Below, piece after piece: positions 3,209 through 48,169 of a DNA stretch of 64,000 nt. Both the position numbers and the translations under genes were made by a program. The DNA is taken from the NCBI GenBank assembly GCA_963971425.1, contig OZ020517.1:16272904-16336903 (forward strand), written 5' to 3'. The notes beneath the pieces were generated by a model that saw only the letters and a program-made list of their open reading frames with translations, was not told the DNA's origin and searched no databases. Within the stretch, counting starts at the first letter, position 1, and every line of letters starts with the position of its first letter. This DNA comes from Bryoerythrophyllum caledonicum. Taxonomy: Eukaryota; Streptophyta; Bryopsida; Pottiales; Pottiaceae.

Positions 3209-3210
3209 TA

Positions 3211-4390: not shown

Positions 4391-4413
4391 AGCATCACGC
4401 ACTCTATAAGTTT

Positions 4414-5424
4414 ATGATGGCAATTTCAGATGAAATTCGTGCTCGCATCATAGGTTTGAGTGAGGGAGGATTTACAGGAGTTCAAATTGCAGCTACTATT
4501 GGAGTTCCTATTAGAACAGTTATAAGGTTAGTAAAAACATTTAGAGAAGATGGAACCTACAAGCGCAAACCTTGCGGTGGAAGTCACGCTAAAAAGCTTA
4601 GTGATAGAGATGCTCGTAGTATTGTGCATTACTCAAAAATTCATCGTTGCTCTTCACTCTCAGAGATTACCAATGCATGTCCTACTCAAGTGTGTAGACG
4701 TATTATTCAAAGGGTCTTACATAAAAATGGCATTTTTAGTCGAATTGCAGTCAAAAAACCTTTTTTGACACCTCGTCACATGTCTCAACAATTAGCTTTT
4801 GCTCAGAAGTACCGTGGATGGAGTGCAAAAGAGTGGGAGCGTGTTGTTTGGACAAATGAATCTACTTTTGAAATTGGAAAAAATTCTCGGCAAATTCATG
4901 TTTGGAGAAGTGCATACGAGCGTTATTCATCAAGTTGTCTAGCTCCTACTTTTAAAAGTAGAAGGACTTCTTTAATGATTTGGGGCGCATTTGCCGGAGG
5001 ACAAAAGTCAGAACTTGTCTTTATGCCTAAAGGTCAACGTTCTGCTAAGGATTTTATAGAAGTGGTTTACGATGCCAAATTGATTCATTTCATGGGTCAA
5101 ATTCCACAAGGAGTGCTTATGGAAGATGGGGCACCCGTCCATAGGAGCAAAATATGTGAAGAATGGAGACAAAGCCACCTTCTTGAAAAGCTCAACTGGC
5201 CTGCAAACTCTCCCGATCTCAATCCAATCGAGAACGTTTGGAGGATGTTAAAAGATGTTGTGCAACATGGCAAACAATGCCCTAGAAGCTTAGATGTGTT
5301 GAAGGTAGTTCTTGAAAGAGAGTGGAAGTTAGTCAATGGTACAAAGCTCCTTCAACTATGTCATTCTATGCCCTCTAGGTTACTAGCAATGATTGACGCT
5401 AATGGAGGACATACACGTTGGTAG
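4414..5424 (+). CDS. Tc1/mariner-type transposase (DD34E spacing, first Asp reads Asn)
   Basis: A 336-residue protein of typical Tc1 length. Residues about 5-60 form a helix-turn-helix region (EIRARIIGLSEGG, then GVPIRTVIRLV). This is followed by a basic linker (KRKPCGGSHAKKLS) and a second HTH-like region to about 110. The DDE core shows VVWTNEST at 145-151, LMEDGAPVH at 235-243 and SPDLNPIENVW at 266-276. Spacing from D238 to E273 is 34 residues, and from position 148 to D238 is 89, so this is a DD34E layout. Position 148, normally the first catalytic Asp (WTDES or WSDES), is Asn, which should abolish catalysis. The frame is otherwise open, and its last codons overlap the inner edge of the right TIR. 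Plant mariners are usually DD39D, so this type is unexpected. Translation could also begin at the second Met. Confidence 0.93.
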   Translation: MMAISDEIRARIIGLSEGGFTGVQIAATIGVPIRTVIRLVKTFREDGTYKRKPCGGSHAKKLSDRDARSIVHYSKIHRCSSLSEITNACPTQVCRRIIQRVLHKNGIFSRIAVKKPFLTPRHMSQQLAFAQKYRGWSAKEWERVVWTNESTFEIGKNSRQIHVWRSAYERYSSSCLAPTFKSRRTSLMIWGAFAGGQKSELVFMPKGQRSAKDFIEVVYDAKLIHFMGQIPQGVLMEDGAPVHRSKICEEWRQSHLLEKLNWPANSPDLNPIENVWRMLKDVVQHGKQCPRSLDVLKVVLEREWKLVNGTKLLQLCHSMPSRLLAMIDANGGHTRW

Positions 5425-5991
5425 ATACGGAATAACTTTTTTGTGTACATCTTTTGGCTTTGAAATTTATCTCACATGTTACCAGCGTAGAGATGATCTT
5501 GTGCCAAAAATTTCACTATGTATCAACAAAAATTCAATCCTAAGGAGGGCGTCAAAGTTGGAAGTAGTAAAATGGTTTTCCCCTTTGTTTCTCAAAACTA
5601 CACATGTTGGTAGATTTGGAATATTATTTTTTGTATGGGTCTTTTGGACTTGAAATTTTCCACACATGCAAACAACATAAAAATGTTTTTGCTCCAAAAA
5701 ATTTCATGGGCAAAAAAAATTTCCTCAAGTCTTGGGAGGGTGTCAAAGTTGGCAGCTGTGACACTTTTCTCACAGCTATCCCATGTTGGTAGATCTTGCA
5801 TAAGTTTTTTTGTATAAGTCTCCTGGGCTTGAAATTTGGTATGCATGTTTTCAACATAAAGATGATGCTGTCCCCAAATTTTCATGGTAAAATAACAATT
5901 TCTCAGCTTTGGGGAGGGTGTCAAAGTTGGCAGCAGTGTAGGACACTATCCCTGGAACTACGAAACGGCCAATTTGAATGTCACCCTATTG
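5411..5991 (-). repeat. Right long TIR with three subterminal repeats
   Basis: Inverse of 3211-3793. Reverse copies of the core motif lie at 5544-5563, 5735-5753 and 5913-5931. The transposase stop codon lies just inside this arm. Confidence 0.88.
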
Positions 5992-6687
5992 TACATTCTC
6001 TTTGCGCACACACAAATTATGTGTGTGTTCAAATGGAGTGCACAATTTTTGTGCTTATGATTTTAGTATTTAAATCCTTGTGGGTTTGATTTAATTTCCA
6101 ACATTTCAACTTTAAACACGCAATTAAGCATTTATGCACTTGGCCATTTAAAAGTGCACTTGGGTACAACGGCAGCCATTGCGAACAAAAGTGGCAAAAT
6201 TGGAAAAATAAAATAAAAAATCAAAGAAAAAAAATGTTTTCCAAAGGAAAAAAATTGAGCTTCTGCAACAATATTACGTACAACCATGGTTGTTAATATT
6301 GGAAGCGATTTTTTGGCATTTTCAACTAATTTGTGGTGGCTCCTTGTTAATACTAGATAAATGTGAATGTAATGTAGTTTCACAATATTTCAAAGATATA
6401 TTTGAAGGATTGTAGTATACAAACACGCGTAATTACAAAAAAACATAATTTATGCAAGGGTTGAGAGTTGATTAAAAGATATTCTACATTGTACATAATG
6501 CATACAATGGTGGAAACTAAATATAGATTCTTCTACAAATGGACTTAGCACCAATAGTAAAAATACCTTTACTCTATAGGATTAATGACATAACGTCTTA
6601 CATCACCCTTAGAATATACTACTCTTACACATACACTATATATCAATTACCATACACAACTAGTATACTCTAAAAAAGGCACACTAT

Positions 6688-6948
6688 CTACTCCATAGAA
6701 TTTAGGGCTGCTTGCAAACGGTTGTCATCAATAGCTTCGGTTTGCATTGCAATATATTGTAGTATGTGAGCCTTAGCCGATTGAAGAATGCGAATTCTGC
6801 TTTCAACCTGCACTCCAAATACATTGCGCTTTCTCCACCCGCTGGCCCCGGACATGGTTCTTTCCGATGTGTCTACCCATGAAAAAATGCATGCATCTTT
6901 CTCTATCCAACTATAGCTCTCCCCAGATGGCTCCCAAAATGAATCCAT
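6688..6948 (-). pseudogene. C-terminal remnant of the transposon's DUF7869-type protein
   Basis: An 86-codon frame starting MDSFWEPSGESYSW and ending LQAALNSME matches the C-terminus of the protein at 38,721-41,949. It runs in one frame across a point where the longer copy has lost a base, so it shows the ancestral C-terminal frame. The rest of the gene is absent: upstream sequence jumps to a different part of the element. Confidence 0.8.
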
Positions 6949-7199
6949 GCAATTTCAAATGTCATGATCCCAATAGATCTCTATTGAATTTGGTTATTTA
7001 CTGTTCAATATATGATGATGATATTGGACCTTTTGATAAAACTGCTTTGAAATGAAAAAATTAAACATGTGTAGAGCATCAATTCCTACACAGTGTCATT
7101 GAATATGCTACACCTCTTTCCATCCCTGAATAGTGTTGTACAAGATAACAATATCATTTTTGATATGATGGTAATGAATCTAGACCATGTGTAATGCAA

Positions 7200-9300
7200 A
7201 CTATTGAAAACCAAGTAAACTGAACTCTCGTAATGGACCTAACCTAGGGAAGAAAATGAACCATGTTGTCTATTACAAAAACTTTAATCTTTCAATCCGT
7301 ATGGTCAAATCTTATGAAAGCTTCTGAGTATGTTACTAAACCCTTGAAGGAACAAGGCATTTTCACAACAAAATACTTCACAATTGCTCATTCTAGTGCA
7401 ATGACTACTGAGGGAAACGGAATTTTTTGACACATCTAACTTTATGACTTCAATTCATACTTATTAGCCAGTAAAGGACCAAGTGTCCGGAATTGACAAT
7501 TTAAAAGATCAACCGGACTCCTATGGTGTCAATTTCTAACATTTTTCTATTAAACATGAGCTGTAGATGGGCATTACTAATACCTTAATGGGAGATGAAA
7601 TTTTTCTCGTATCCGATTTTCATGAAAAAATTTAAAGGTTTTCAATTTTATTTGGCAAAATCGGGCACATCAGGCACCTCAAAAACATTTCCGAGGATAT
7701 TCTATTGAATATGAAAATTTTAATACTAGCAAGTAATATTTTTTCCTTGCATATTGTACTAAAACTTATTATCTTTAGTGAAAAATAGCATATTAGCCTA
7801 TGTCAAACATTCTCACACATGGTAACACATTGTCGGGCAAGGTCCCAAAAAACTTCTTCCTTTGCTCATAAAAGTTAGAGGTCTTTGTATTTTTTTGCCC
7901 TTATTTATTCCACATCAATATGTGGTGTGAACTTTTCTATTGACCATTTGAATTGTCAATCTAGAATATCTGAGGTTCACAAAAAAATAAAACGTAAATT
8001 GGGAATTTCTGAACCTCGACTTCTTGCATAGTTGTTTTGAATATGCTACTCCCCCTTTCTACATCTAAAATTCGTGTACAAGGAACTGACATCATGCTCA
8101 ACACGATGGTATTGGATTTAGATATTGTGTAGTGCAATAATTTGACATCAAGTGAAGTCAAACTCTGTTGATTTGGAAAATGCAGGATAGAAAATGAACC
8201 ATTTGCTTGACTTCAAACACCATAATTTTCTGATTGATGCGGTCAAATTTCATAAAATGTTGTAAATGTGTAATTTACCACGTCTTCATTTAGATCGTAC
8301 GGTCAAAAGATGAGATAAACAGTTTTTGTTTCCTTCTTTATACATTGCACTAGAATTGAACAATTTGAAGTGTTTTTGATGTGAAACTGTCACAATACCT
8401 TAGGAGTTAAGCACATCCTCACAAAATTTCGTAAATTTTTACTGCACAAATTGAAAGATTATGGTGTTCAAAGTACAAAACACAGTTAATTTTCTTTCCT
8501 AGGTTGTGTTGATAAGCAAACTTTGATTGTAGTTGGAGTTTTTGTTTTTGTACTACATAATGATTAAGTTCATTACCATCCTATTAATTTTAATGTTATT
8601 TTTTTGTACACGAATTTTAAAAGGTAGACAAAGGGTGTGGCATAGTTGAAACAATTGTACAACAAGTGGAGATTCAAAATTTATCAAATTGTGCTTTATT
8701 TTTTAATGACCTCATCATGTTTTAGAATGAGAATTCAAATGGTCAATAAGAAGGTTTACACCACATCTTTTGATAGAGAAAGTAAAATGAAAATAATATA
8801 AAGACCTCTAAGCTTTATGTGGAAAGGAAGAAGTTTAGTTTGTACCTTGCCTAACAATGTGTGACCATGTGTATGTGGAATTGACTTAGGTTAATGTAGA
8901 AATTTTTACTAAAGACAACAAATGTATTTTATCAATACAAAAACAAATAAAGGTTGTTCTATAAACAACATAGTATAGAAGATCGATCAAGAATCAATCT
9001 AAAATATGTATAGAAATAATTGATTACCTCAAAGTACCTTGCAGGTGTTAGCGGTACAAACATCATTGTTTGATGGCATTCAACATTAAATCACCATTCC
9101 GTTCTTGATGATGGACATGTTTTTCTTCTCTTCCAAAAAACCTGCAAAATGTGCATAAAAAATTTATGGTGATTTATTAAAACCATGTGATAAAAACTAT
9201 TAAGTATCTTTGTATCATATACTATTAGCCCAAAGATTTAATAAAATATGTAAAAAGTTTACAAAATAGAAAAAACAAAGGCAAAAGTCAAAAGTTAAAA
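7200..9300. repeat. AT-rich dispersed repeat modules inside the 7 kb element
   Basis: No gene is visible. The stretch is built from recurring modules also found near 11,770-12,170, 20,540-20,830, 33,560-33,760, 42,990-43,190 and 63,610-64,000. Diagnostic words include gaggtagacaaggagtgtag, agtggaggttcaaaa and gtcaataagaaggtttaca. The 7,260-7,620 part is collinear with 42,280-42,640 of the complete element. Confidence 0.65.
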
Positions 9301-11700
9301 TTGGACACATCACCTTGAGGCACAAGGTTTGAACTTGCATATAAGGTTTCTTTACAAACCCTAGAGGTCTCTTCTCTTCCCACTTTCAAAGGTGAGCTCT
9401 ATTGCAAACATGTTGAAGCCATGTCAGTTTCTTTTCATTTACTAATTTTTGTGGGCTTTGCGTGTGGTGTCTAGGCTGGAGCAGGAAGTTTGTGCTAAGA
9501 AGGAATTTCTGTGGACAAGGTAAGCTTTCCTAAATATGTTTCATTGCTGAATTAGACATAGGCAACTCAAAGTTAAATGATAGTTACAACTTACAGTAGT
9601 ATAAGGTGAGGCAATATCAATCTATGAGCATACAAAAAAGACACCAAAGAATATGTTCAAAATGTCAAATTCAAAATAAACTGAGTGTTTATATATAATG
9701 GGAGACATCAACTCCTGAGTGACATCAAAACCCCCTACAACTGAAGTTGTGGGTGTAGTCCGTAGTGTGACATTGAATCCGTGGGTGCAGCTACACAAAC
9801 CCAAACCCTAGCCGCCACAAATCCAAACCCTAGCCGCCGCCACTAGGAACCCAAATCCTAAACTAAAAAACCCTAGCCGCCGCGTTCCCATGAGATCCAA
9901 GACGATCCCATGGAGTTCCATAGACTAGAGGTGTGCGCGCGCACACCCCTGAGTGCTGGTGCTCCTCCATCCACCACATCCGGACGAGATCTTGGACGTC
10001 AATTTGTGAGAGCATCAGCAGCTGATAATTTTGAGAGATGAACACGCTTACATGAGGATCATCGCGCATGAGTGTGCCAGGTTGAGCTCGGGGAACAGGT
10101 TCTAGCAGGAATGAAGAAAGGTGCCGACGCGGATCATGAGCACGCGCACGAAGTATACCCGAGCGCTTGCTTGGAAGCGAGTAGTCGTCCGAACAGTTGC
10201 GGTGAAAGGAGAAGCGCCTGAACATTCGAACTCTCCATTCTCGCGTCAGCAAACACCGCATCATCGCCTCAATAAACAATGCCCTGTTTTGTAGCTCCGG
10301 CGCAGCTTCAATGCAACAAACAATGCCATGTTCTGCAGCAAACAGTACCAACTTCTGCAACAAACAGAACCTTGTGCCTTCGTGTTTTCAACATCATGTG
10401 CCGATCTGCGTTGAAGCTGCGCCAACAGCTGCCTTTGACTGCCTTTTCCCGAAGTTGCGCCCGAAGTGCCTTCGTCCACAGAGCCTGCACCGAAGTTCGG
10501 AGCTACGCCGAAGCTAGTGCCTGCACCTCATGATCTTCGCCGAAGTGCCTACTGCTTCAACGCAGCAAACAGTGCAATGATAGGCTAAACCTAGCTAAAC
10601 TTCGTGCGCCGATCTGCGTTGAAGCTGCCCCGATCTCGTTGAAGCTGCGCCGGAGGTGCGCCCGACTACCTTTTTCGAAAGTTGCGCTCGAAGTGCCTTC
10701 GCCCAAAGTGCCTGCGCCGAAGTTCAGAGTTGTGCCGAAGCCAGTGCTTGCACTTCATGATCTTCGCCAAAGTGCCTACAGCTTCTGCGCTCGAAGTTGC
10801 GCCTGTAGAAGCCGGAGTGCCTGCAGCTCATGCGCCCGAAGTGTGCTGGATCTGCGCCTACAGAAGCCGGAGTACCTGCAGCTCCTGCGTCCGAAGTGTA
10901 CTGGATCTGCGCCTACAGAAGCCAAAGTAGTGCCTGCACGCGCAACGGTATAGTCAGATCAAGGTGCGATGCACGGTGACGATGAAGATTCAAGAGCTGA
11001 CAGCACCTGTGAAATGAACTTGGTATCTGATCGGCACTGCCAGCCTTCGGCGTTGGAGCGAGGCCGAACAGTCCCATCCTCGAAAGCGTCGGAGGCGACT
11101 TCACGTGTGGAGCCAAATTCGCCGTGGCAAGTGCGACCGCGCGCAAGGCATCCTCGTGGTACGGCGATTCCGGCGGCCTTCGCACTCCGATCTCACTGAA
11201 CAACCAAGTTTCGTGGCTGCTGCGCTACAAAGCAACTCATGCGCTCGAAGTTGAAGCGAAGTTGAAGAAGCTGCACCTGCAAAGGTACACCCGTTTCAAC
11301 TTCACTTCAACTTCACTTCAACTTGTCTCCCTCTCCTCCCTCACACCGTCGTCGCCCTCACAAGCCCTTCTCTCCCACACCTCCATTGTCTCTCTCCTCC
11401 AAACCCTACACTCTCACACTCACAGCGTCCATCATAACTCCTCCCAGGGTGTGCGCGCGCACACCCCTCCTAGGACTACCCAAAGGTATAAAGGATTGAT
11501 ATCCTTTATTGATACCCTGAAGTCCCAAACCCTAATCCAAAATCCAAAATCCAAACCCTCAAATGATACCATGGTTGATAACCGGATATGGTGCCCAGGA
11601 ACTCATACCCTGGTGGTGATACCCTCAATATTGAAACCCCAAGTACCATGGTCCATAAATGATGTAGAGAATACCTCAACCAAAAATCGTTAAAAATGCT
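9300..11700. other. GC-rich foreign block carried inside the 7 kb transposon derivative
   Basis: Composition changes sharply from AT-rich element DNA to GC-rich sequence, and nothing similar occurs in the 10 kb copy. Around 9,795-9,880 there are repeated aaccctagccgcc words, typical of plant promoter or leader regions (telo-box type). An 18 bp perfect palindrome (ggtgtgcgcgcgcacacc) occurs at 9930-9947 and again at 11448-11465, with ctag next to it on the outer side of each. These may mark the ends of a separate inserted unit. Frames in the block are long because of GC content; none matches a protein I recognise. It may be captured host DNA or a nested insertion. The outer limits are approximate. 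Confidence 0.55.
10450..10925. repeat. Nested GC-rich tandem duplications (about 225 bp and 54 bp periods)
   Basis: The block at 10,453-10,560 recurs at about 10,678-10,785. A 54 bp unit containing agaagccggagt then repeats a little over twice (about 10,801-10,925). The whole region is rich in cgaagtgcc words. Translations repeat accordingly and show no known domain. Confidence 0.75.
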
Positions 11701-12253
11701 TGTTTTAGTGCAATTAGCAAGGAAGAAAAAATAAGGTTTTTTTGGTAGTTTTAACCGTAGGATCTCAATTATGATTTATTAATTAATACACTGACAAAAT
11801 TTTATAAAGTTTTACCGCACGGATTGAAAGATTATAATGTTTGAAGTAGTGAAATGGCTCATTTTCTTCCCTTCGTTTTCTGGATCAGTAGACTTTGACT
11901 TCAATTGGTGTCCAATTTTTGCACTATAAAAGGTCTCAATTAATTACCATAATGTTAAGCATGATGTTAGTTTTCTATATACCAATTTTTAGAGGTAGAA
12001 AAAGAGTGTAGCATATTCAAAAAAATTGTGGAATGAGTGGAGGTTCAAAAAATCTCAATTCACGTTATACTTTTTTGTGAACTTGATATTGTTTTAAATG
12101 AGAATCCAAATGGTCAATAAGAAGGTTTACATCACATAATGCCGTAGAAAAAATAAAAAGTGAATCATACAAAGATCTCAAAGTTTTATGTGGAAAGGTA
12201 GAAGATTTTTTGGTACCTTGGCCGAAAATGTGTGACAATGTGTGAAAATAATT

Positions 12254-12572
12254 GAATGGGATTAATATCGGACCAAGTTTGCCTTCCATTCCAAGATCTA
12301 GCGTATCTGAGGACATCATTGCATTTCAGAGGGGCCTTTTCCTCAGAGCGAAAGATGTCCTTCAATACAGAGGATGGCTTTTTTTCTACAATGATGATAG
12401 CGTAAGGCATACGCGGGAGGGTGTTCCTGGCATTTACCGATATGCTGAGTGTGCGTTCATTAGCACCGAAGATGTGGAAGATCGTCCAGTGCAAGATCAT
12501 GAACTGTCTGCTATGGTAGGTAGCGCCATTGGACACGTAGAGGGAGTTGTTGCACTAGAAGATGAACTCTGA
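12254..12572 (+). pseudogene. C-terminal remnant of the transposon's plus-strand gene
   Basis: This frame matches the last 100 or so codons of the plus-strand gene of the complete copy (ends near 47,559). Shared segments include SVSEDIIAF, VEDRPVQDHELSAM and the terminal EDEL. The part 5' to it is missing, replaced by dispersed repeats. It cannot make a full product. Confidence 0.75.
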
Positions 12573-13599
12573 GACCTGGAGCTATATATTATAGTAGAGC
12601 ATGTACGCAGTTTAGGTGGCAAGTACGTTAGTAAAATGCACTTTAAGATGTGTCCATCTTCGGTGGGTGGTATATATTTATATAGTGGGTCGTCTATATG
12701 ATATGTTTGATTTTAGAATCTCTCAGCAATAGTGTGGAATTGCTTGATTATGTATGTTTTTGCATATAAAATACAGTGAGGTACTATACACTGTTGTAGG
12801 AAATTGCATATATATTTTTGTATCTCTTACACATTGTATTTGTAGTGCAGTACTCTAAAATCCTATAATAACTCAAAACACATTTATAATCTCTTTAGGC
12901 ACATGATTATAATTTTGTAGTAGGATTTGCAAACTAGATTAGAAATCATATATATTCTAAAAAAAGTTAGCAAATATAAAAAATATTTCTCTTATGTGAA
13001 CATGAAGATGTCAATGTTTGATACGACAAACACCAAAATTTTGTGACAAAAAACAAACTAAACTCTTGCCAAATTTTGATTTTTTAAAAATTATGAGCAA
13101 ATAACTTGCGGCTTTCTACCAGCAACCAGTGCACTTGGCTAAGTGCATAATTGCTTAATTGCGTGTTTTTATTGTTTTTGTCTTCATGGCATCTTCTTCT
13201 TCTCAGGTGGTTTACAGTTGTTGTGTTTATAGTGTTTGTAGGATTATTGTGTTGGTTTACTCTTTGGTGGGTTTGTGTTATTGTCCTAACATCTTTGATG
13301 TTCTTTTTATGTCAGGATTTTGAGAGCTTTGACTTTAGTGTGGATTCTCCCACACTAGGTGGACGCCTTGTACACGGAGGTGCTGTAGACAAAGGTCTGT
13401 AGACGGAGGTGAAGAATATATGGCGCCACCACTTACTCTATTGCCCACTTCTAAACTGAGGCTGAGTTGTAGGCCTTTAAGAAGGTGATTTTTAATTCTA
13501 GACGAGATTTTAAGCAGAAGCTTGATGATACGAGGTCTAGAGTCACTTCTCTAGAGTCGCAGATGACTAAGACATAAAAGTTACTGCGGGCTAGTATGA

Positions 13600-27803: not shown

Positions 27804-30800
27804 CTAAGCATTTTTTTCCCAGACGCAGTAATCTTTGCCGACGGCACAGATCTCGTACTCTCCGGGGTTGGGCGCGAGGTGGCCCATGTCGTAGCGGGGG
27901 CCGATCTTGACGACCACGCGGTCGTCGATCTTGGCGACGTACAGGTCGTGCTCGGCTGTGAGGATCTCGACGTTGCTGGTGGCGTGGATGTCGTTCCGCT
28001 TGCGGACTGTGAGCAGGCCGCCGATTTCGCCCTTCAACCCCCAGTCAAACCAGTGGTCGTAGAACTGTGGGAAACACGAACAAAGTGAAGGTTCGATCAG
28101 TGATTTTACTTGGAAAAACTCATGGGTCTCCGATCAGGAGGACTCTGCTGGTTACTAGTACATGCTTCTTAGATACTAGGATGTGTCCCTTCCAGTTACT
28201 AATACGTGTTTCTTAGCTGCTGCTAGAACGCATTTCTTCCCCTTACTGCTGAAATAATCTTCTTCCAATTGCTAGTGATGTTTGCAATTTTTCCACTTAC
28301 TAGAATGAATTTCTTCGTGTTGCTACTGAAGTTATGGTTCTTCCAGCTACTAGTACGACTTTCCTAGTAACGCTCTCGCATCTTGTTCATCCTAGTATCA
28401 TTATGGCATCACGTTTCTCTCGTCCAGGAGAAAAAATATGGAGGTGAGGAGGTCTTACAATGCAGGGATTCCCCGGATGCGTCAAAATGTAGGCATACCC
28501 TTGCATGATGTGCTCCCCGGGGAACGGCCAGTGGGCCTGCGTGCTCCCCGTGTCGTGATTGTCCAGGAACGTCACCGCCTTCTCAGCCCACCACCCGATC
28601 ATGCCAGGCGGCTTGTTGTTCGGGTCGCGGAGGCGCCACAGCTGCCCCCGCACGGCTTCCTGCAGGATGCCCTTGGTGGTGAAGTCGAAGGCCGTGGAGC
28701 GCTGCTTTGTGGCGTTCACCCAGTCCACCAGTCGCTGTCGGTGGGGGTCCTGGTTGTAGTCCAGTCCCTGGTCGTTGTAGCCTGCAAAACAAAGCATTCT
28801 CAGCAAAGGATAATAAAGAGGTAAGGCGAAGTTACAGGAAGCTCCATGATGCTACTCTTTGTTAGATCATCGGAAGCGCTTGGTGGTCACTAAGCTCAGG
28901 TTAGAAGTTGTTTTAGGAAGGAAAGGTCATGGATCTCAGCCGCCTTTCCTTCCAAGAAACAATCTAGGAATGGTTTTCAATGAGAAAGAGGTATTTTCAT
29001 GACCTAGTCAACATTCCTCACATAAGTCTCTTAAATGTAATAAATCATACCTTCAAGTCCACATACAAGAGGGAGCTGAGACTTACACATGTTGGTCCAG
29101 AACTCGCCGACTGAGAACTGGGGCTCGGTCTTTTTGATGTAGCGGCCGACGAAGTAGCCGCCGTAGCCCTTGGCAAAGTCGAACCTCCAGCCATCGAATC
29201 CAATCTTGTACTTCATCCAGTTCATCCAGTTGATCAGATCCTTCTGCACGATGTCGTTCGTGTGGTCGATGTCCGGCGCCGCCCCAAAGTCATCTCCCGT
29301 GTCAGGTGCACCTGCAAAACACACGCACTCCAATTTATTACACAGTTACATCACGTCTGTGAAGCTCAGGGATGTTTTCCATAATCAAGGGGCTACTCAG
29401 CTTTAACGTAAATGGTGTCAGAGTGCAGACACCATTTACGTCTGGTAATCTGCAAGCAGGCCTCGTGATAAAAAAAAAACCAGCGAGATGTTCACCTGTG
29501 CCATTGCCGTAAGGCCAGTCGTCGCCGACAATGGCCCACGGGCCCCAGTCCAGCGCGTCGTCGGGCGTGCCGCCCTCGAAGATGACCCACTCGCCGCGCT
29601 CGTCCTGCTCCTCCCCGCAGCGGTGGTTCACCACGATGTCCGCGATGCAGCGCACGCCGACGCGGTGGTACGTGTCGATGGTCTCGCGCAGCTTCTCCTC
29701 GTTGCCGTACTTGCTGTCGTTGAGGTCGTAGAGGCGGCCCGGCATGTAGCCCTGCGCGGACACCGAGTGGCTCGACGGGGGGAACCACACATCCGTGATG
29801 CCGGCCGCCGCTAGCTCCTCCGCTTGCGTGGCGACCACGTCGTACCAGCACGGACTCCGCCAGGATTCCCAATTGAATCCCTGCAAATACACCCCAGTGA
29901 GACAAAGAGGAAGAAAATTCACAAGTTCGTAGCAAAAAAAGCAACAATTCCTACTAGAACATCGCCATGATCAATAAAGTTACAGTGCCCTCCATCGTAA
30001 AGTTTTGGTACCCTTCTACAATTGTACATTGTCTGGTTAGAAAACAGTTACATAAATGATATAGTTACTCATATTACAACCAAACCATGAGCTGTAACTT
30101 CGGATTACTATTGGCGTTATGTCCAGAATTGCGCAAGCACACCGAGATGGTTACTGAGATAACGGTGCATCACCTCTTCCGGGGCTAGACAAGGTTATAA
30201 ATTCTCATAATCAGGAGCTGCTTGCACGTTACCTGGTGAGAGAATACTACACACGCTCTACTCAAACTGTCACGACATTGTCATCTGCTTTGCATCGAGT
30301 CCAGTAATGAGGAAGCAGCTCCGGATTACGAAAACACCCAGTTCTCATAATCTGGGGCGTCTCGAGTGAGAAAACAGTAACAAACCACGACTAAACCGCA
30401 TCACCATTACCATACCTGGAACATAATCACTCGGAGAGGATCCGCCTTGATGATCCCGCCCCGGGGATGATGAAAGCTCCGCGTCCGGGTTAGCTGCCGC
30501 TTCAGCACCGGCCCCTCGGAGACCGCCTCGTCCGCGCCTCCAGTAGACGTGCCCACCTCCTCCGGGGCCTTGATCACGTTCTCCACCACCTCGCTCACCG
30601 TCTCCTTCACGACCTCCGGCGCCGTGGTCACATTCTCCTTCACCGCAGCGACCGTCTGCTTCACCACCTCCGGTGCCTTGGACACATTCTCCTTCACCGC
30701 ACCCACCGTCTCCTTCACAGCCTCTACTGGAGTCTCTTCAGCTCTCTCCGGCTCCTTGGCCTTGGGTTTCTTCACCTGCTGCTCCTTGGGGGCTCTAGGA

Positions 30801-36900: not shown

Positions 36901-38149
36901 ATGAATTTCCAATAATTTTTATCCAAGAAGACTTCGATAGGTACTGAACCTACTTACTAGAACTACATTGTGAACAAATTAGCCAAGAAGTAATCAAAGA
37001 TAAATTTTTAGAGAAGAAGGCCATCAATCATATAATTTTTCCAATTTACATCAAGATTTACAAGGATACGAAAAGCCACATATACAAAGATATGAAAGGA
37101 CGACAACTATTTTTCCAAGTGTAGAAATGAGGGATTTGCTGACAAACGTTTGATATTAAAAGCTAATTTCATATGGTGAAGGAAGGTCTTCTCACCTTCA
37201 CCATTTTAAAGTTATGTTCAACTAATATTTGTCAACCATGTCAAAATGGTAGAGTGGCAGGGGTCCCAACACTTTGTGCTTCGTATTGAGACGCTTCATT
37301 CGGTGAAACCTTGGAAGAGGCTCTATTTTGGGCACAGAGGAAGGACCCCTTGTTGCCCCTTGAGGGAATGGACGGCAACGGATAAGGAGTCATCCTCTTC
37401 TGGTTCTCCAAACAATTAAGTTTTAGGGTTTAAGGTTCATGTATCAAAGTTTAGGATTTAGAATGAGCTATTTAGGGTCTATTGAATCAAGTTTAGAATT
37501 TTAGGATTTAAGTTTTAAATGGGACTATGCAAATGGGTAGGTGAATAAAGTTGTAGAAACAAAAAATGGATGACTCCATCCATCTATGTCCATTCCCTTA
37601 GGCGCCACCAAAGGAGTAATTCCACCTTGGCTTCCATTTCTAGTGCAAACACCTTTATTTTAGATATCCTTAAACTTTGATTAGAATGATTGTAAATGGC
37701 CTCATTGACCGTTTTTCGGGAACGGGGTGGGGACAAACATGGTCCAATTTTTAAATTTCCTATTTCTAAAAAATAATAACTCCCTATAGATGTTTAAATT
37801 CCATGGTGGAATCTCCAAGAGAATTTTGGAGCCACATGCCTCAAATTCGGAATATTTTTTCCTAAATAAGCCTTTGGGCCCCAATATAAGAGGGCCAAAA
37901 ACATGACACCATGCCATTAACACCTAAAGGACAAAGCGTTTATGATCCTGGCATCAATCCCAATTTCCATTCTACTATGTACTCATATTTTTTAGCATCA
38001 AATATGAGTGGGGATTTTTAGAGATGAAATTACAAAAATTTGGTGAAAACATAAGATTATTGTGATATTCTGAAGAAAAAAATAACATTCGTATAAAATA
38101 CAAACCATGCATACAAATTCTGATAAAATGTCAATAAATGTGTACATAA
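36900..38149. other. No gene seen
   Basis: AT-rich flank between the LINE and the 10 kb transposon. A tRNA-like look at 37,240-37,300 did not fold convincingly. Confidence 0.4.
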
Positions 38150-38152
38150 TAA

Positions 38153-38182
38153 ACACGCAATTAAGCAATTATGCACTTGGCC
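38153..38182 (+). repeat. Left TIR of the 10 kb transposon
   Basis: 30 bp matched in reverse at 48,127-48,156 with one mismatch. The same sequence ends the 7 kb copy at 6,116 and 13,166. Confidence 0.92.
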
Positions 38183-38720
38183 ATTTAAAAGTGCACTTGG
38201 GTACAACGGCGGCCATTGCGAACAAAAGTGGCAAAATTGAAAAAAAAAAAAAAAACCAAAGAAAAAAAAAATTCCAAAGAAAAAAAAATTGAGCTTCCGC
38301 AACACTATTACGTACAATCATGTTGTTCATATTGGAAGCGATTTTTTGGCATTTTCAACTAATTTGTGGTGGCCCCTCGTTAATACTAGATAAATGTGTA
38401 TTTAATATAGTTTCACAATATTTCAAAGATAGATTTGAAGGATTGTAGTATATAAACAGGCGTAATTACAAAAAAACATACTTTATGCAAGGGTTGGCAG
38501 TTGATTAAAAGATATTCTACGTAGTACATAATGCATATAATGGTGAAAACTAAATATAGATGCTTCAACAATTGGACTTAGCACCAATTGTAAACACAGC
38601 TTTACTCTAAAGGATTAATGACATAACGTCTTACATCACCCTTAGAATATACTACTCTTACACATACACTATATATCAATTACCATACACAACTAGTATA
38701 CTCTCAAAAATGCACACTAT

Positions 38721-41700
38721 CTACTCCATAGAATTTAGGGCTGCTTGCAAACGGTCATCATCGATAGCTTCGGTTTGCATTGCAATATATTGTAGTATGT
38801 GAGCCTTTGCCGATTGAAGAATGCGAATCCTGCTTTCAACCTGCACTCCAAATACATTGCGCTTTCTCCACCCACTAGCCCCAGACATGGTTCTTCCAAT
38901 GTGTCTATCCATGAAAAAATGCATGCATCTTTCTCTACCCAACTATGGCTCTTCCCAGATGGGTCCCAGAATGAATCCATGCAATTTGCATACCGTTGTG
39001 CAGAAGACCCATGTTCATCAGCAACCCCCCTTTGGATGATGGGCCAATACCAACAAACCTTTATCTTAAGTCTCCATCGGTTTTTTCCTTCCTCAATCAC
39101 TTTCCCCACATAGAATGGTACACCGCCTTCTATCTCTGCTTGATCAACACTCAAGGCTACAAACTGTCCACAACAGATATCAGATTGTGGATTAAATGGT
39201 GGAAATGGGTCGTGATTACCTTCATACATTGCTCCTTCTTCGGCGCGTTCCTCAACATAGTTGCGCTCTGTTTGTTGTGCCCTACGCACTGCTTGATTAG
39301 AGGGTCTTTCTCTACGAGGACCAAAGTATCCTCGAGCCTCGGCATTTGGAAGCATGGCCACTACCTGCTCTACGACATTTACCTCGCGATTTTCTTCACT
39401 TCCACCATTCCTTACATCCAAAGATGCGCTCACTGTAGGTCCGGTGTTGGAGAACTCTGAAGGCCAAAACGGTGAGGTACGATGCTCATTACTACGGTCT
39501 TTATGTGGAAATTGAGCTAAATAGAGTTTCAATCTTTCAGCCTCTACTTTTGCCTCACGATTCTTCTCCTCATGCTGCAACCTTTGAATGCACCTTTGTT
39601 TATATGCAATGAAGTCATCCAACGCCTTCAACTCCCGTTCGTCTGCTGCAAATACTTCCGCAAACGATGGTTGTCCATCTTTATTTGGCAATGACCTCAA
39701 AGTTTTCGTCCCTACCTCCGGTCCCCATGGATCCTTGCAATAATGCTTGTGTTGTACTCGAACTTCACGAGTCCCTTCTCGATTGTCCATATAGAATCGC
39801 ATGTGGTGCGGAAATGTTATGCCCACCAATGAATCTTGACCTGTCAGTAAGTGAGGAGTTATGAACAATTTCCAATCCCATACATTCTCTAGCAGCCGGG
39901 CACTAAGAAATGCCTCCGTAGGAGATGTTCCTCGTTCTATAAGACTAATCATTTCCTTCAACGAGTCCACGTCCGACCTCTTCAACGTATTTAATATACA
40001 ACTGAAACGTTGATCAATATCTTCGTGTGTATGGCCCACTATAAGAAAAGATAGTTCCACCTCCTGAAAAAACCCCAATCCCACCATTGTAGCACATAGA
40101 GCAAACATATAAATGTTTTTGTTCTCACGCGTGCAGTTGTTGGCCTGAATTCGCAGTGTTGGTGGCAAAAAGCCCCTCCTCCGCAACACATCTCCAATCA
40201 CGTACAACAATGTACTCACGACTTGATTGCTATCGTATTTGTGGTGAGCCCCAAACCACACGTCGCAATATAAACCAATCCCATGTACAAGAGCACCACA
40301 CAGATGGGTCTTCACAAACCGGTGTTCAATGTTCTTCACAGTCTGACGCATCCTCGGTACCATGGTCGTGTTTTGGTCCATGCCATCCACTATGATGCAC
40401 ATGTACAACTCAGGGCTAATATAACACGACCTCTTGAATATCCAATAATGCCTACGTTCTTCTATCTGGTTGCGCAGATGCAACATAAACAATTCCTTTA
40501 TCTTTATCCTTGCATCCGCATTGGTGGTTCCCTCCATGGCACATTTATACTCCCAACAATGATAACACTTTGAGAATCTCGAGAATGGAGGTACCTGAAT
40601 ATGGGGATATTTGATGCGCCACATCCTCCGGAACAAACTCATAGAAATGGTTTCTCCATTACAAATTCTCTTTACCTCCTCGTTCACGTAATTGAATACA
40701 TCAAATTTGGTTGTATTCATAGGAAGGAGAATGAGAGGCATCACTTCGTTGTACTCTTACGGCGAATACAACGATGAGGTTGAGGACAACCAGCTTCATC
40801 GACAAACGATTTAAAGCAAGCCTCTGCTGCAGACATTCTAGTACTTTCTCTTATCGGATCTGAAAGGATATTGCCGTGAATCGATGTCACTCTTCCATAT
40901 ATTAGACAGTCCTTCTTAAATTGCTTAAAGCGCCTCTGTGAATATCCAACCTCAAGAGCGTAGCAAGCATTGCAAACTTCTTTCCCATCTAACTTTGTTA
41001 CAAACTTGTCTCAACGAGTTCCTTCCGTCCTTGTATAAAAAGAAACCAGCATCTGTCTCATCCACGTACTTTGAACTGAAAATTCATTACCCCATGCATT
41101 ATATTGCATGTCCAATAGATACCTTGCTGGAACATCCCTCAAACAATTGCGTTTGCATCCTCCTTGTGCCATTGCAATTTGCACGCTTCTAAGCGATACC
41201 TTAGATGGTGCAGCTTCTGTCAATGATGGCTCCCATGAATCTCTCCTTCTCCTATTTTGCATAGAATATGGACGACGTGCTGGTCTAACATAAGCAAATC
41301 CATCTACATGGGGCAAATCTTGGATATTTGAGGGAGTAGATTGGGAAAACGACGAATTTTCATCTATGGCGTTTGAAGCATGACTACTGCGTCGAGACCT
41401 CTGGGTGGATCCTGGTGTGTTGATGAACTAAGGAAAATCAAATTCTTGGGCCATCACTTCTATAGGCACTATCTGTGATCCAATGTCACCATGGACACCT
41501 GTGATATCAGGTTCTACAGCCACGACACGTAGCAAAGATCGATGCCAACGAATGATCAAGCCCACACACATGCCAAGGCGTTCTCCTACAATCTCTCCAG
41601 TCCAATGCAATGCATCATCTATCCTAGTGATACGCACCGCCACCTCGAATGGGAACAACTTCGATCCATTCAATTCCATGCCACTTTTGAATGCATGCTC

Positions 41701-41949
41701 CTTGGTTGCTAAGCCCACCACATTTCCTCTTTCTGAAAGCAATTCTACTGCCCTTTCCAATTCTGAAGTCATGATCCCAACAGATCTCTCTTGAATTTGC
41801 CTTGCACGTGCTGCTCGTACTAATCGGGCCCCCACAGAGCTATTAGAAGGCATATTGTCCCTTTCGATGTGTGGCCGTATAAAAGGAGTCTGAATCATGC
41901 GGCTCTCCATTATCACTATTGAAAAAATAGGAACATTATGGCTGCACAT
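38721..41949 (-). pseudogene. DUF7869-type protein of the 10 kb transposon, probable transposase
   Basis: The frame runs from about 41,949 (or a Met near 41,905) through an N-terminal basic region and a Cys-containing part (GGCKRNCLRDV). Next come KEVCNACYALEVGYSQRRF and HGN, then the 669-codon core (40,744-38,735). The core has a CYHCWEYK motif, VDGMDQN (first acidic motif, D120 of the core), QANNCTRENKN and IVGHTHEDIDQRFS, the hallmark of DUF7869 proteins. Known relatives, from memory, read QLDN in the third motif, so a predicted catalytic Asp is Asn (N202). Breaks: TAG at 41,428-41,430, TGA at 41,011-41,013, a frameshift near 40,744 and a one-base loss near 38,895 that moves the true C-terminus (ending LQAALNSME) into another frame. 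DUF7869 as transposase is inferred from its place in this element. Confidence 0.82.
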
Positions 41950-42645
41950 TAGTCAAAATACATGTACTAATTGTTAACCTTCAAAGCACCATTCATTTGA
42001 TAAAATGTATGTTTCTAAACACATATTTATTGTTCAAAATATGATGATGATATTGGACCTTTTGATAAAACTGCTTTGAAATGAAAAAATTTAAACACGT
42101 GTAGAGCGTCAACTCTTGCACAGCGTCATTGAATATGCTACACCCCTTTCCATCCTTGAATAGTGTTGTACAAGATACTAATATCAATCTTTACATGATG
42201 GTAATGAATCTAGACCACGTGTAATGGAAACTTTTGAAACGAAGTAAATTGAACTCTCGTAATCGACTCAACATAGGGAAGAAAATTAACCATGTTGACT
42301 ATTACAAACACTTTAATTTTTCAATCCGTACGATCAAATCTTATGAAAGCTTCTGAGTATGTTACTAAAGCGTTGAAGGAACAAGGCATTTTCACAACAA
42401 AATATTTCACAATTGCTCATTCTAGTGCAATGATTACTGAGGGGAATGGAATTTTTTTGACACATCCAACTATATGACTTTAATTCATACTTATTAGACA
42501 CTAAAGGACAAGTGTCTGGAATTGAGAATTTGAAAGATCAGCCGGACTCCTATAGTGTCAATGTATAACATTTTTCTATTAAATATGCACTGTAGATGGG
42601 CATTACTAGTACCTAAATGGGAGATGAAATGTTTCTCGTATCATC

Positions 42646-42971
42646 GGATATTTAACAAAATATGGACAAATGAAAGTCCATAAATAGTTGTCGGCTGCCA
42701 GCCGGCGACTGTCAAAGCGTCTTATCAATGATCTTTGAAAGTGCCTAACTCACTCATTTTCTATCCAAATGGAGCTTATGAGATGTTTTTTGGCATCTAC
42801 GGAAAATGAGGATGTCAAAAAACACCTCACAAGCTTAATTTGGACAAAATTTGAGTAAGTTATGGCCGTTTGAAATTTTCATACGAAGAGAAGCGTCGGC
42901 TGGCAGCCGATAAGAATTCAGAGTCAAATCGGTCCTCAAATGCTGATTTTGTCCAGATTTTGTCAAATATC
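42646..42971. mobile_element. MITE inside the 10 kb transposon
   Basis: Ends read ggatatttaacaaaatatgg and, inverted, gatatttgacaaaatctgg; length is about 326 bp. It contains the palindromic cggctgccagccg. The 7 kb sister element lacks it at the matching place (near 7,625), so it inserted after the two copies separated. Confidence 0.8.
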
Positions 42972-43221
42972 TATTTTAAGCACGTTGTTAGTTCCTTATG
43001 CACCAATTTTAAGAGGTAGACAAGGAGTGTAGCATATTCAAAAAAATTGTGCAATGAGTGGAGGTTCAAAACTTCTCAATTCACGTTATATTTTTTTGTG
43101 AATTTGATATTGTTTTGAATGAGAATCAAAATGGTCAATAAGAAGGTTTACATCACATAATGCCGTAGGAAAAATCAAAAGTGAATTATACTGTAGTTGG
43201 AGTTTTTGTTTTTACACTACA

Positions 43222-43391
43222 TTTTCCGTAGATGCCAAAAAACATCTCATAAGCTCCATTTTGATAGAAAATGAGTGAGTTAGGCACTTTCAAAGATCTT
43301 TGATGAGACGCTTTGGCAGTCGTCGGCTAGCAGCCGACGACTATTTATGGACTTTCATTTGTCCATATTTTGTTAAATATCCAATGATTGA
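43222..43391. mobile_element. Second, inverted partial copy of the same MITE
   Basis: Matches 42,646-42,812 in reverse (catttgtccatattttgtta, agcagccgacgac). Together the two form a 170 bp inverted pair around a dispersed-repeat module, between the two divergent gene regions. Confidence 0.78.
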
Positions 43392-43596
43392 TATGCTATT
43401 TCACCATAGAACTAACACCATGCTTAACACGATGGTATTGGATTTAGATCTTCTATAGGGCAAAAGTTTTAGAGGTAGACAAGGAGTGTAGCAAATTAAA
43501 AAAATTGTGCAATGAGTGGAGGTTCAAAAATTCTTAGTCCATACTAATAGTGACTATTGTTTTGTAATGATATACAGGTTTTTTGAGTGTTGCGTT

Positions 43597-46500
43597 ATGG
43601 CACCACCAAATATTGACAGAATTTGGGAGAGCCACGGCTGGTGGATCGCGGAAGTGGATGAGTCGAGCGCCTTCTTATGGGTGACGGATTATCCCTTTGA
43701 GTTGGGGAAGCGTACATCGGCGTTGGAGAAGAGTTTTGGCAAAATCCAAGCAATCACTCTTCGACGTGATGATATGGTATACGTTACTTGCGCAGTGGGT
43801 CCAGGTCAATCGGAGGTGAAGACTTCTCTTTCGAAGAAGTTGCTTCTTGCACCTGTCCCTTTGAATCTTCTTCAAAATCTAGGTCAGGTGAAATTCCTCA
43901 AATCCTTGCAGATGTTTTGGTTAAACATCTCTCTTGCGGTATGTACTGCTAGACACAACAACGTCTTAGCCTGTTTAGCATTATCACCGGAGATGGTGTT
44001 GAAGGCTAAGAAGATTATGGAAGAACATATTAGATATGAGGCATTTCGGGAGAGGGACCCATCACGTGCGACAACTCAAGCTCCACTAGCGGAACCAGAA
44101 GAAACAGAAGTTTATCGAATTCTTGCTGAGCCGTTGCAACTGGATTGGCGACCATTAGAGGGAGGCAGGGGAAGTGGAGGCCAACATCCGACCATAGCTT
44201 CTAAGGTACAAACATTACCTAATCCTCCATTAACGAGTAGACGTCCTACGAAGAAGCCACGGCGTGTTGAGAGTGATGTAACTTCTGGTTCCAGAAAAGG
44301 CCCATCATGTTTGGATCCAAGCGGGAGGAGGTTGATTGGGAGAAGTGTAAGATTAGGTCGGAGGGGTCCTAGGTCGGAGCTAAGGACGTCCGATGGTCAT
44401 CGTAGGGCCCCAACATCTACACCGAGAGATTTAGCTGATTTGTCAGCCATGGCGCCAGAGGAAAAAACATTTCACAACCTATCAAACAGTGCACCAGAGG
44501 ATTTTGAAGACATTGCAGAGATACCACAGGATGTTCCAACTTCAATGTATTTAAAAGCACCAGTGCCTACAGCGGAGGAGATTGCAAAACGATCAGTGTG
44601 GGGGAATTTTGTATTTAAGGCACACATAGACCGCATTGTCTTTGTGGAGAATCTGGAAACGAACCACCGGGTTTTATCACAGAAGAGGGTCAGAGAAATA
44701 TTTAACCGCTTAAGAGACCCAGAATCTATGACTCGGGTGAGTAGATTGGTACTTCGACCGATCAGATACATCGTGCATACTACCACTGATGATGGTGTCG
44801 TTGAGAAGGTGGAGTTGCCATTTCCGTTGGTAGGAACCGCACGAGAGTTTGAACGCATGTTCATTGCACACGGGAGTGCTTCTGCAGAGGGTGCCATGGG
44901 ATCCCAGTACTCTTGGCTTCAAGATCATATCATTTGAGAACCGGTGAATGGGCAATAGATACTAGCAGCTTGTAAGTTTGCACAACAGCAGTGGAGAGAT
45001 GGTACCATGCCTTTAAATGAGTACCTCGACATGTTCGAGCGGCGGGAGGCCTCTTTTGTGGTGTATGATGATCGTCGCTTTTACATTGAGAAGTCTGCGC
45101 GGATCAACGTGGCGGAGTTCAAGAGACAGTCATATTCTACCATGGAGGAGGATTTGAGGAAGATCCGTCAGATTTGGGATCTATACGGGAGGCCTTATAA
45201 CACACTACGTGCGGACGATTCAAGCAGGGCTGTTGCTTTGGTGAGTGTGGCAAGTACAGTGCATAAGTTGCCCAAGGGAGATGAAGTTGTCACGGTGAAG
45301 AGGTTGGCCAAAAACATGGAGGATCTGACAAATCATGCATGGAATCCGAGCAATGACTGCTTCGAAGCTATAATTCAAATATGCAAGGACTACGAAGACG
45401 GCATTCTCTTCTACAGCAAGGAGGAAGAGGACAAGTGGAAGGACATGGCGAGGAAGAAAGAGCTAGATCCAAATGTGGACGTACGACCAACAAGAAAGGA
45501 GATGACGTAGAATTGGTTGAGGCTGTTAGGTAGGATTCCGAATCCATATTATCTTCGGTTGGCAAAGTCTGCTGCAGCGAAGCCCGTGAAGGAGGATGGA
45601 GTAAGACCTCGTCAAACATATTACTTCGATGGTGTAAAAGACAAGAATCTACATCCTTGTACGATTGCCGGTGTGGTTGACCAATATCAGAGACGAGAAG
45701 CTGTGATGAATTCCATCCGTTGGTTGATGGTGGAGAACAAGGAAAGTACACCTAATTCCATGGAGGAGTTCTTTCATATCCGTATAAGGAAGTATTTTCC
45801 GAGGAGTAACGCACAACTTGATCCTTTGGAAAGCTTTTGAATGCTTCCACAAAAAAAAACTTGGACTGCTCATGTGCGGGGGAGGGTGTCTAATCTGGAA
45901 GACATAGGCTACCTCATCCCCCCTTCCATCAGGTTTCATTATGGTGACATCGCAATAGGGGGACGTGGATACATTGGACTATCCGTGGATGTGGGAACTG
46001 GCTACTGCTAATTGGGAATGGCAGATGGTAGTTAAGAGGCCAGGCCAGAACGACACACAAAATCTTCTTCCGGTTCGGTGTAGAAGAGGGTTATTCCGCA
46101 CCGACTACATAGAGCTGGGGAAACCATGTTTGTGGGTGATTGATTGTCGACGTGGCGGTGGGAGACATGGAGATGGTCATTGGGGAGACGCACAATTATC
46201 CGCAGCTTTTGCACAGCTGATATTATGGATGGCAAATATTGAACGATGGAACGTCATCTTCTTGTTACCAGCAGCCGTGTATGCCAACGAAGAGTTTTTC
46301 ACGAAGGTGAAGCTTCCAGAGGGATGTACTATGCGACTTGGATGTTGGGCATTTGATCTGAACTCGGTTAATCCCTATGCTCTCGATTTTACAGAGAATG
46401 GGCGTTTGGAGCAAGTAGTACAACCGATTGGCGATGTTGTGATTTGTATGCAGCACCCTGTGGGTACATCTCCTGGCCCGAGCTATGTTTCTCGAGACGT

Positions 46501-47559
46501 TCCACTTCCACTTGTTTTCTTGGATCACTGGAGTGAGGCACGCCAACCCTCTGAAGTTGATTCACTTGAGAGATCTCCATCAGAGCTGACAAGACTAGTG
46601 GGCTCATACTTGCCCCGTGGTTGGGGTTTAGTGGCGTGTAGCATATCGACGGCCATTCCCACGATCCTTGAAGGAGATTTCCAGGGATCTGAGGTTTTCA
46701 TCATTTACGATTGTACAGACAGAGTTTCATTCCTGTACAATGAGTTGTCCGACAATTTCCAAGGACAACTATTGGTCAGGACTGGTGGAATAAGTACTGG
46801 TTGCAACATCGTACTTGAGACCGAAGAGGCGGATGGTGGAATGAGGAATGAAGACGACAATGAGGATGGAGGTGGTTTACACGAGAGATTGCCACGTTCA
46901 GGTACCACTGAAGATTTCTCATCTCGCAGTGGTTCAGATGCCGATGAAGATGGAGTGAATCAGTCTCCTCCAAGAGAGAGGATTCCATCAACGCAGCGGG
47001 CGGTGGGAGATACTTCAGGGAAGACGTCTGCAACACCTACAGAGAGGATGCAAGATACCGATGTAGTGGATGTTGGTTTGGCGGCAGGGGCAGGAGGGGG
47101 GCGTACTTTGATGGTCCTAGGTTGGAGATGGAGGAAGAATAATTGGATTCATTGGAATTTTTTTCGGTGCAGAGGAGGATTCCACATCCTTCGATGCCTT
47201 CTCAATCAGAGCCTGTATCGGAGACACAAGAGACGTTCGAAGGTACTCAGAGTGATACCAGACCAGGTTTGCCTTCCGTTCCAAGATCTAGCGTGTCCGA
47301 GGACATCATTGCATTTCAGGGGGCCTTCTCGTTAGAGCGAGAGATGTCCTTCAATCCAGAGGATGGCTTTTTCTACAATGATGATAGGATAAGGCATATG
47401 CGGGAGGGTGTTCCTGGCAATTACCAATATGTTGAGTGTGCGTCCATTGGCATCGAAGATGTGGAAGATCGTCCAGTGCAGGATCATGAACTGTCCGCTA
47501 TGGTAAGTAGCGCCATTGAACACGTGGAGGGAGTCGTTCCGCCAGAAGATGAGCTCTGA
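43597..47559 (+). pseudogene. Second gene region of the 10 kb transposon, unrecognised product
   Basis: The ATG at 43,597 follows an acceptor-like atacag and starts MAPPNIDRIWESHGWW. The frame stays open to 44,937, then continues in the same frame past TGA (44,935-44,937) and TAG (near 44,960 and at 45,508-45,510) to 45,840. A shift at a G run near 45,960 leads into a 456-codon frame with DTLDYPWMWELATANWEW and WGDAQLSAAFAQLILWM. A second shift near a G run at 47,095 leads to the tail, which ends EDEL and is also kept in the 7 kb copy. The middle is basic (KKPRR); the tail is acidic and Ser-rich. I recognise no family. It may be one long gene or two. Coding DNA is GC-richer than the flanks, arguing for past selection. 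Confidence 0.65.
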
Positions 47560-48169
47560 GCCCTGGAGCTATATACTATAGTAGAGCATGCACGCAGTTT
47601 AGGTGACAAGTACGTTAGTATAATGCAGTTTGAGATGTGTCTATCGTTCGGTGGGTGGTATATATTTATATATTGGGTGGTCCATATGATATGTTTGATT
47701 TTAGAATTCCTCAGCAATTTAGTGGAATTGCTTGATTATGTATTTTTTTGCATTATAAAATATAGTGAGGTATTTTATACTGTCTTAGAAAATTGCATGT
47801 ATATTTTTGTATCTCTTACACATTGTATTTGTAGTGCACTACTCTAGAATCCTATAATAACTCATAACAAATTTATAATCTCTTTGGGCGCATGATTATA
47901 ATTTTGTAGTAGGATTTGTAAACTAGAAGAGATATCATATATTTTCTAAAAAAAGGTAGGGAATGTAAAAAATATATTACTGATATGAACATGAAGTTGC
48001 CAAGGTATGACACGACAAACACCAAAATTTTTTGACAAAAAACATACTAAACTTTTGCCAAATTTTGATTTAAAAAAAAGTTATGAGCAAATAACTTGCG
48101 GCTTTCTACGAGCAACCAGTGCACTTGGCCAAGGGCATAATTGCTTAATTGCGTGTTAATAGTTCTAAA

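Follow-up and report, generated by a model that had tools for sequence, protein, structure and literature searches.

A defective copy of a high-copy moss transposon with DUF7869 as its probable transposase

The locus and its decayed copies

We analysed a stretch of 64,000 nucleotides from the moss Bryoerythrophyllum caledonicum (assembly GCA_963971425.1, contig OZ020517.1, positions 16,272,904 to 16,336,903), hereafter called the window, which contains a transposon copy with two divergently oriented genes. One of these genes encodes a DUF7869 protein, and the other a long protein of no recognised family that we refer to as the companion. An earlier note on the same DNA had described a complete two-gene unit of 10 kb at 38153-48156 and a second, sister copy in the window. 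The inverted termini, the divergent genes and the sister copy were all recovered in our analysis, but the boundaries proved to be one base short at each end and the unit is not complete, since its full relatives measure 12.5-13.7 kb and both of its genes are degenerate. The features are given below in window positions.

38148-38151, no strand: left target-site duplication, AATA
38152-48157, no strand: focal transposon copy, 10,006 bp, AACACGC...GCGTGTT, a defective, centrally deleted relative of elements of 12.5-13.7 kb
38152-38183, plus strand: left terminal inverted repeat (TIR), 32 bp, one mismatch against the right TIR
38724-41910, minus strand: degenerate DUF7869 gene, with stop-to-stop frames at 38735-40756, 40741-41010, 41011-41427 and 41428-41952
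39773-40321, minus strand: match to the PF25273 (DUF7869) domain, residues 146-328 of a frame of 673 amino acids
40139-40141, minus strand: AAC (Asn) codon at the position of the second conserved aspartate, which all 21 open copies retain
41911-43596, no strand: shortened centre separating the two genes, containing both direct and inverted repeats
43597-47559, plus strand: degenerate companion gene, with in-frame stops in the window copy
48126-48157, minus strand: right TIR
48158-48161, no strand: right target-site duplication, AATA
6115-13167, no strand: sister copy, 7,053 bp, with the target-site duplication TTTA at 6111-6114 and 13168-13171

The focal copy is dead, with a frameshifted DUF7869 gene that no longer encodes the second aspartate and a companion gene interrupted by stops. 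Its centre is shortened, with about 1.26 kb kept compared to 3.8 kb in another copy (L015) and about 2.6 kb gone. The sister copy has kept about 0.9 kb from each end together with central sequence, so that of both genes the C-terminal ends alone are present and the DUF7869 core is missing. TIR-bounded copies without the DUF7869 core do therefore exist. The earlier note had named copies lacking any DUF7869 homology as a refutation of its reading, but these copies do not refute it because they are internal-deletion derivatives.

Ends, target duplications and copy number

The ends of the focal copy are formed by AACACGCAATTAAGCAATTATGC... and its inverse, and the TIR is 32 bp long with one mismatch rather than 30 bp as described before. 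A second TGCACTTGG motif is located at about +40, inward of the left TIR. When a 22-bp TIR core was searched with up to three mismatches, four matches were found in the window, two at the focal copy and two at the sister copy, compared to a mean of 0.01 in shuffled sequences. With the corrected boundary the focal copy is flanked by AATA on both sides and the sister by TTTA, and five further insertions for which both ends were available show perfect 4-bp duplications as well (TTCA, TATA, GAAA, CATG and GATG). A perfect 4-bp duplication is thus present in seven of seven correctly paired insertions. The 3-bp duplication TAA that had been suggested before was rejected, as it resulted from setting the boundary one base off: an A precedes ACACGC in 38 of 39 end entries (the exception, L023, is a rearranged end) and hence belongs to the TIR.

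One further locus (L006, contig C11) carries two tandem left ends in the same orientation, at 121844 and 122015, i.e. 171 bp apart. The raw pairing with the outer of these ends was mismatched and was left uncounted; the inner one matches. The duplication at the right end is common to the inner left end alone, which points to an internal rearrangement or a nested insertion.

The insertion target was characterised on 69 ends (36 left and 33 right). The four bases adjoining the element are 79% A/T, and the outer flank shows a preference for C-A-C, with A at position -6 in 47 (P=3e-11), C at -5 in 35 (P=3e-8) and C at -7 in 29 of the 69 ends (P=5e-5). The target therefore resembles CAC-NNNN-GTG.

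Mobility of the unit, as claimed in the earlier note, is borne out by the genome, which was searched as an assembly of 437 Mb in 894 contigs. An exact 23-bp TIR occurs 1,193 times (601 forward and 592 reverse), while a reversed control pattern was found 0 times. Since each copy has two ends, this corresponds to at least some 600 copies, either complete or truncated. To find uninterrupted insertion sites, the two flanks of each window copy were fused around a single duplication and matched to the genome, with 40 places listed per copy. The focal copy is inserted in a repeat: 38 of its 40 listed places continue across the insertion point (76-79% identity), and the remaining two correspond to the flanks of the copy itself. 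For the sister, two of 40 listed places, both on the same contig, span the insertion point at 87-89% identity; of the rest, two represent the flanks of the sister itself and 36 match over a short run of the initial bases. The two uninterrupted sister sites were read over 120 and 119 letters and are free of the element, but small gaps at the junction prevent them from establishing the length of the duplication by themselves.

The 100 TIR places listed include 27 pairs of neighbours in facing orientation less than 20 kb apart; 13 of them enclose 2.2-7.1 kb, another 13 enclose 9.9-14.7 kb and one encloses 19.1 kb. Two other neighbouring pairs among these places are not in facing orientation. Three copies were read completely and measure 12,555, 12,772 and 13,681 bp, with both divergent genes open in two of them. 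All three (L039, L040 and L041) show a run of N in the centre, which might reflect either masking or a gap left where a difficult repeat could not be assembled. The closest pairs of copies differ in their DUF7869 genes by a synonymous divergence (dS) of 0 and 0.0014. Such near-identity indicates that these copies moved or were duplicated recently, and the family has apparently been active in recent times.

The DUF7869 protein and its companion

The presence of a DUF7869 gene in the unit, which had been recognised from its motifs, was confirmed by a minus-strand match to PF25273 with E=3.8e-46 and 157.5 bits against a curated cut-off of 26. In an open copy the match reaches E=7.6e-51, and DUF7869 is the sole recognised domain of the protein. 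Of 30 fetched copies, 21 carry an open frame of 1,060 or more codons, which encodes 1,063 amino acids from the likely start in 20 of these 21; in L033 it was taken from a later Met and comprises 986 amino acids. The most constrained part of the protein contains the segments IIVDGMDQ, QADNC.RENKN and VGHTHEDID, from which single copies deviate (QVDNC in L018, QADNY in L033 and DHTHED in L030). The residues D509, D512, D591, E630, D631 and D633 are invariant in all 21 open copies, and D509, D591 and E630 show the spacing D-x81-D-x38-E, which resembles a DDE triad.

The ratio of nonsynonymous to synonymous substitution rates (omega) has a median of 0.21 over the 199 of 210 pairs of open copies with dS above 0.02. 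The pair L015/L020 gives 0.19 for the whole protein, with a drop to 0.06-0.07 within residues 451-750; a value of 0.09 was obtained for L015/L016, a close pair with very few changes, and one of 0.25 against the decayed window copy. Because the triad is invariant in 21 of 21 copies and the strongest constraint lies around it, we regard DUF7869 as probably the DDE/D transposase of the element. The earlier note had already considered this role likely. A DUF7869 transposon with a divergent companion gene is well supported by the conserved acidic residues, their DDE-like spacing, purifying selection on both genes, the TIR ends and the uninterrupted sites, whereas an RNase H fold, also envisaged in the note, is putative. 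Further DUF7869 subfamilies are present in the genome. One paralogue with 60% identity retains GMDQ, QADNC.RENKN and GHTHEDID in a fetched stretch that begins after the first aspartate. No relatives could be confirmed in viral and prokaryotic collections, and a motif scan of prokaryotic genomes returned 15 stretches that are presumed to be chance matches.

The companion comprises about 1,314 amino acids from the likely start MAPPNID. Its frame is open in L015 and L016, whereas in L020 it contains three in-frame stops. Out of 1,727 candidate matches to the companion 42 were scored, eight of which have no stop inside the match. Both genes are under purifying selection. For the companion omega is 0.27 between L015 and L020, falling to 0.09-0.13 in residues 1-150, 301-600 and 901-1050 with values of 0.21-0.48 in between, and it is 0.35 against the decayed window copy and 0.37-0.77 for the C-terminal part in the 13 stop-free loci among 30 right-end loci.

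Exactly one in-frame stop, TGA, is present in 18 of the 42 scored companion matches. Should this be the same codon in all 18, an entire subfamily may rely on other copies or on readthrough of the stop.

In agreement with the earlier note, the companion could not be assigned to a family. Searches against Pfam, NCBIfam and PHROGs gave nothing above the cut-off, the best Pfam value being E 0.06 (DUF2469) and all others at least 0.16. In the PDB the best value for a long piece was E 1.2; a piece of 220 amino acids gave E 0.0022 to a designed helical-repeat protein, in which no single stretch was significant, and this was taken as chance. A tblastn search with 321 amino acids found no match in phages and six in plasmids at E 3-8. 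The segment VDGQHIVAAC recalls, as we presume from the motif, which no search supports, the DGQH of ParB-like proteins.

As claimed before, the two genes are divergent, on the minus and plus strand in the window and likewise in all 26 of 26 listed pairs. These pairs derive from the 42 scored companion matches, 26 of which have a listed DUF7869 match within 16 kb, with starts 6.0-11.4 kb apart. The co-occurrence of the two genes that had been proposed for TIR-bounded copies is thus seen in 26 matches, and the other 16 are unpaired among the matches listed. The DUF7869 matches used for pairing were the best 66 of 4,455 and the best 150 of 3,606 candidates, and the result was the same with 66 plus 18 as with 66 plus 150. 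Because these partner lists are partial, the 16 unpaired matches are not evidence of absence. Both genes point outward from a centre with 354-bp direct repeats and inverted repeats.

In the copy L039 (contig C9) this centre contains a 20-bp minisatellite with AAACCCTA (telo-box-like) units in addition to the 354-bp repeats. Such a centre, located between divergent genes, could be a bidirectional promoter.

Proposed transposition mechanism and relation to known superfamilies

We consider it likely that the focal element is a defective copy of a recently moved, high-copy TIR transposon with DUF7869 as its DDE/D transposase and the companion as a selected accessory protein. The DUF7869 protein would recognise the TIR and the subterminal TGCACTTGG motifs and would excise the element by a cut-and-paste route. 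Insertion into target DNA would then proceed with a 4-bp stagger and thereby create the AT-rich 4-bp duplications at sites resembling CAC-NNNN-GTG. The companion, transcribed divergently from the repeat-rich centre, which might serve as promoter, would be a conserved accessory protein that probably assists transposition or expression. The earlier picture of a DUF7869 transposon with a divergent companion is retained here, with 4-bp instead of 3-bp duplications. Transposition is thereby offered as a function for DUF7869, which is listed as unknown in Pfam, and the exact ends, the 4-bp duplication and the target preference make the proposed transposase testable in vitro. The companion is of interest as a conserved protein without recognised relatives in a family of at least about 600 copies, some of which are near-identical.

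Several observations weigh against these assignments. The first aspartate of the triad is ambiguous, since D512 is an alternative to D509. None of the transposase models of Pfam, NCBIfam or PHROGs matched DUF7869, nor did any PDB entry by sequence. AlphaFold2 runs on single window sequences yielded mean predicted local distance difference test (pLDDT) scores of 42.5 for the DUF7869 core and 38.5 for part of the companion; both are of very low confidence and were not used. With respect to the companion, its C-terminal 260 residues show an omega of about 1 between L015 and L020 and are apparently unconstrained, omega is 0.48 for the close pair L015/L016, which shows very few changes, and 16 of the 42 companion matches have no DUF7869 partner among the matches listed. 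The companion, being selected as well, could also hold the catalytic function.

It is improbable, in our view, that the roles are reversed, with the companion as catalytic transposase and DUF7869 as accessory. Such a reversal would be in line with the purifying selection on the companion, pronounced in residues 1-150, 301-600 and 901-1050, and with its lack of a known family, but the strongest constraint is found at the D-x81-D-x38-E of DUF7869, which is typical of DDE enzymes (the search for such a triad was confined to DUF7869), and DUF7869 is present in several subfamilies of the genome. Both genes might instead be passengers on a non-autonomous element that is mobilised by another transposase, as both window copies are defective and the 13 of 27 listed TIR pairs of 2.2-7.1 kb are too short for both full genes. 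Purifying selection, the many open frames and the constant divergent layout inside the TIRs would however be unexpected for passengers, and this explanation appears very improbable to us.

As regards classification, several superfamilies share single features with the element, for which we continue to assume a DUF7869 transposase. PIF/Harbinger elements are two-gene transposons that encode a DDE transposase and a second protein. They resemble the present element in having two genes and a (here putative) DDE transposase. Their duplications are 3 bp long (PMC2213677) compared to 4 bp here, and no Harbinger transposase was matched in Pfam. CACTA (En/Spm) elements are described as exceeding 10 kb, with short TIRs and a high copy number in plants (PMC10741241), all of which applies here as well, but their CACTA/CACTG termini and 3-bp duplications differ from AACACG and 4 bp. 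Ginger elements end in TG...CA rather than AA...TT. Because of these differences in termini or duplications, membership in Harbinger, CACTA or Ginger was excluded.

Kolobok has a DDD/E transposase with a lineage-specific accessory protein in some lineages, 5'-RR...YY-3' termini and typically TTAA duplications, those of KolobokP being 3-5 bp long (PMC9587614). The 4-bp duplication, RR...YY termini (AA...TT here) and a (here presumed) accessory protein are thus common to both, whereas the duplications observed here vary (AATA, TTTA, TTCA, TATA, GAAA, CATG, GATG) and are not TTAA. The C/DxxH signature of Kolobok is missing from all but one of the 21 open copies, and the DHTH of that one (L030) is one substitution of GHTH; this check assumes that E630 is the last catalytic residue, and in one copy no such signature was present in the 150 residues downstream. 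The Kolobok accessory proteins offer a precedent by analogy for the putative role of the companion.

The closest resemblance among the published descriptions is to Sola. Published descriptions report for Sola a DDD transposase, 4-bp duplications, TIRs of 11-1,124 bp, lengths of 2 kb to more than 15 kb and occurrence in a moss (PMC10741241), list a Physcomitrella Sola1 (PMC9033089), describe AT-rich 4-bp duplications and TIRs of 12-21 bp for Sola2 of two amoebozoan species (PMC3627910) and place Sola in the RNase H-like superfamily (PMC3985635). Our element agrees with these descriptions in its 4-bp duplications with 79% A/T in the flanking four bases, its 32-bp TIR, its length of 12.5-13.7 kb in the three fully read copies and its presumed DDD-type transposase. 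It differs in the divergent companion of no known family, which the descriptions cited here do not mention for Sola; Fanzor1 is mentioned there in Sola2. The comparison was made on published features, and 4-bp duplications also occur in other superfamilies. We lean towards Sola or a relative of Sola. A divergent Sola member with DUF7869 as DDD transposase and an added accessory gene is a serious possibility, though one that we hold somewhat short of probable; it would name the family and is compatible with the mechanism proposed above.

The undescribed superfamily that the earlier note had suggested was not shown; in this reading it would be one of cut-and-paste elements based on DUF7869 in which the companion is indispensable. 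It would be consistent with the missing match to any known transposase family (Pfam, NCBIfam and PHROGs) and with the open-access literature searched, in which no mention of DUF7869 was found and in which all text matches to GHTHED, among those listed, were unrelated by title. The AT-rich 4-bp duplications, the TIRs and the presumed DDD/E transposase coincide, however, with the features given for Sola in the papers cited above, and we regard a new superfamily as doubtful. We likewise consider it rather unlikely that DUF7869 founds a superfamily of its own, as yet without a name, whose members would be very large plant transposons with two genes, directed to CAC-NNNN-GTG sites and dependent for transposition on a selected companion; the possibly ParB-like DGQH segment of the latter is a lead at the level of a motif.

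Two other features of the window lie outside the element. A Tc1/mariner-like transposon is located at 3207-5995, with a frame of 343 amino acids (4393-5424) that matches DDE_3 and HTH_Tnp_Tc3_2 between long inverted repeats. Tc1-like elements with DDE_3 (PF13358) are abundant in the genome, where the best 150 of 2,484 candidates were scored. On the minus strand at 28387-29970 lies a gene that we take, from the resemblance of its translated frames, to be an alpha-amylase-like gene of plant type.

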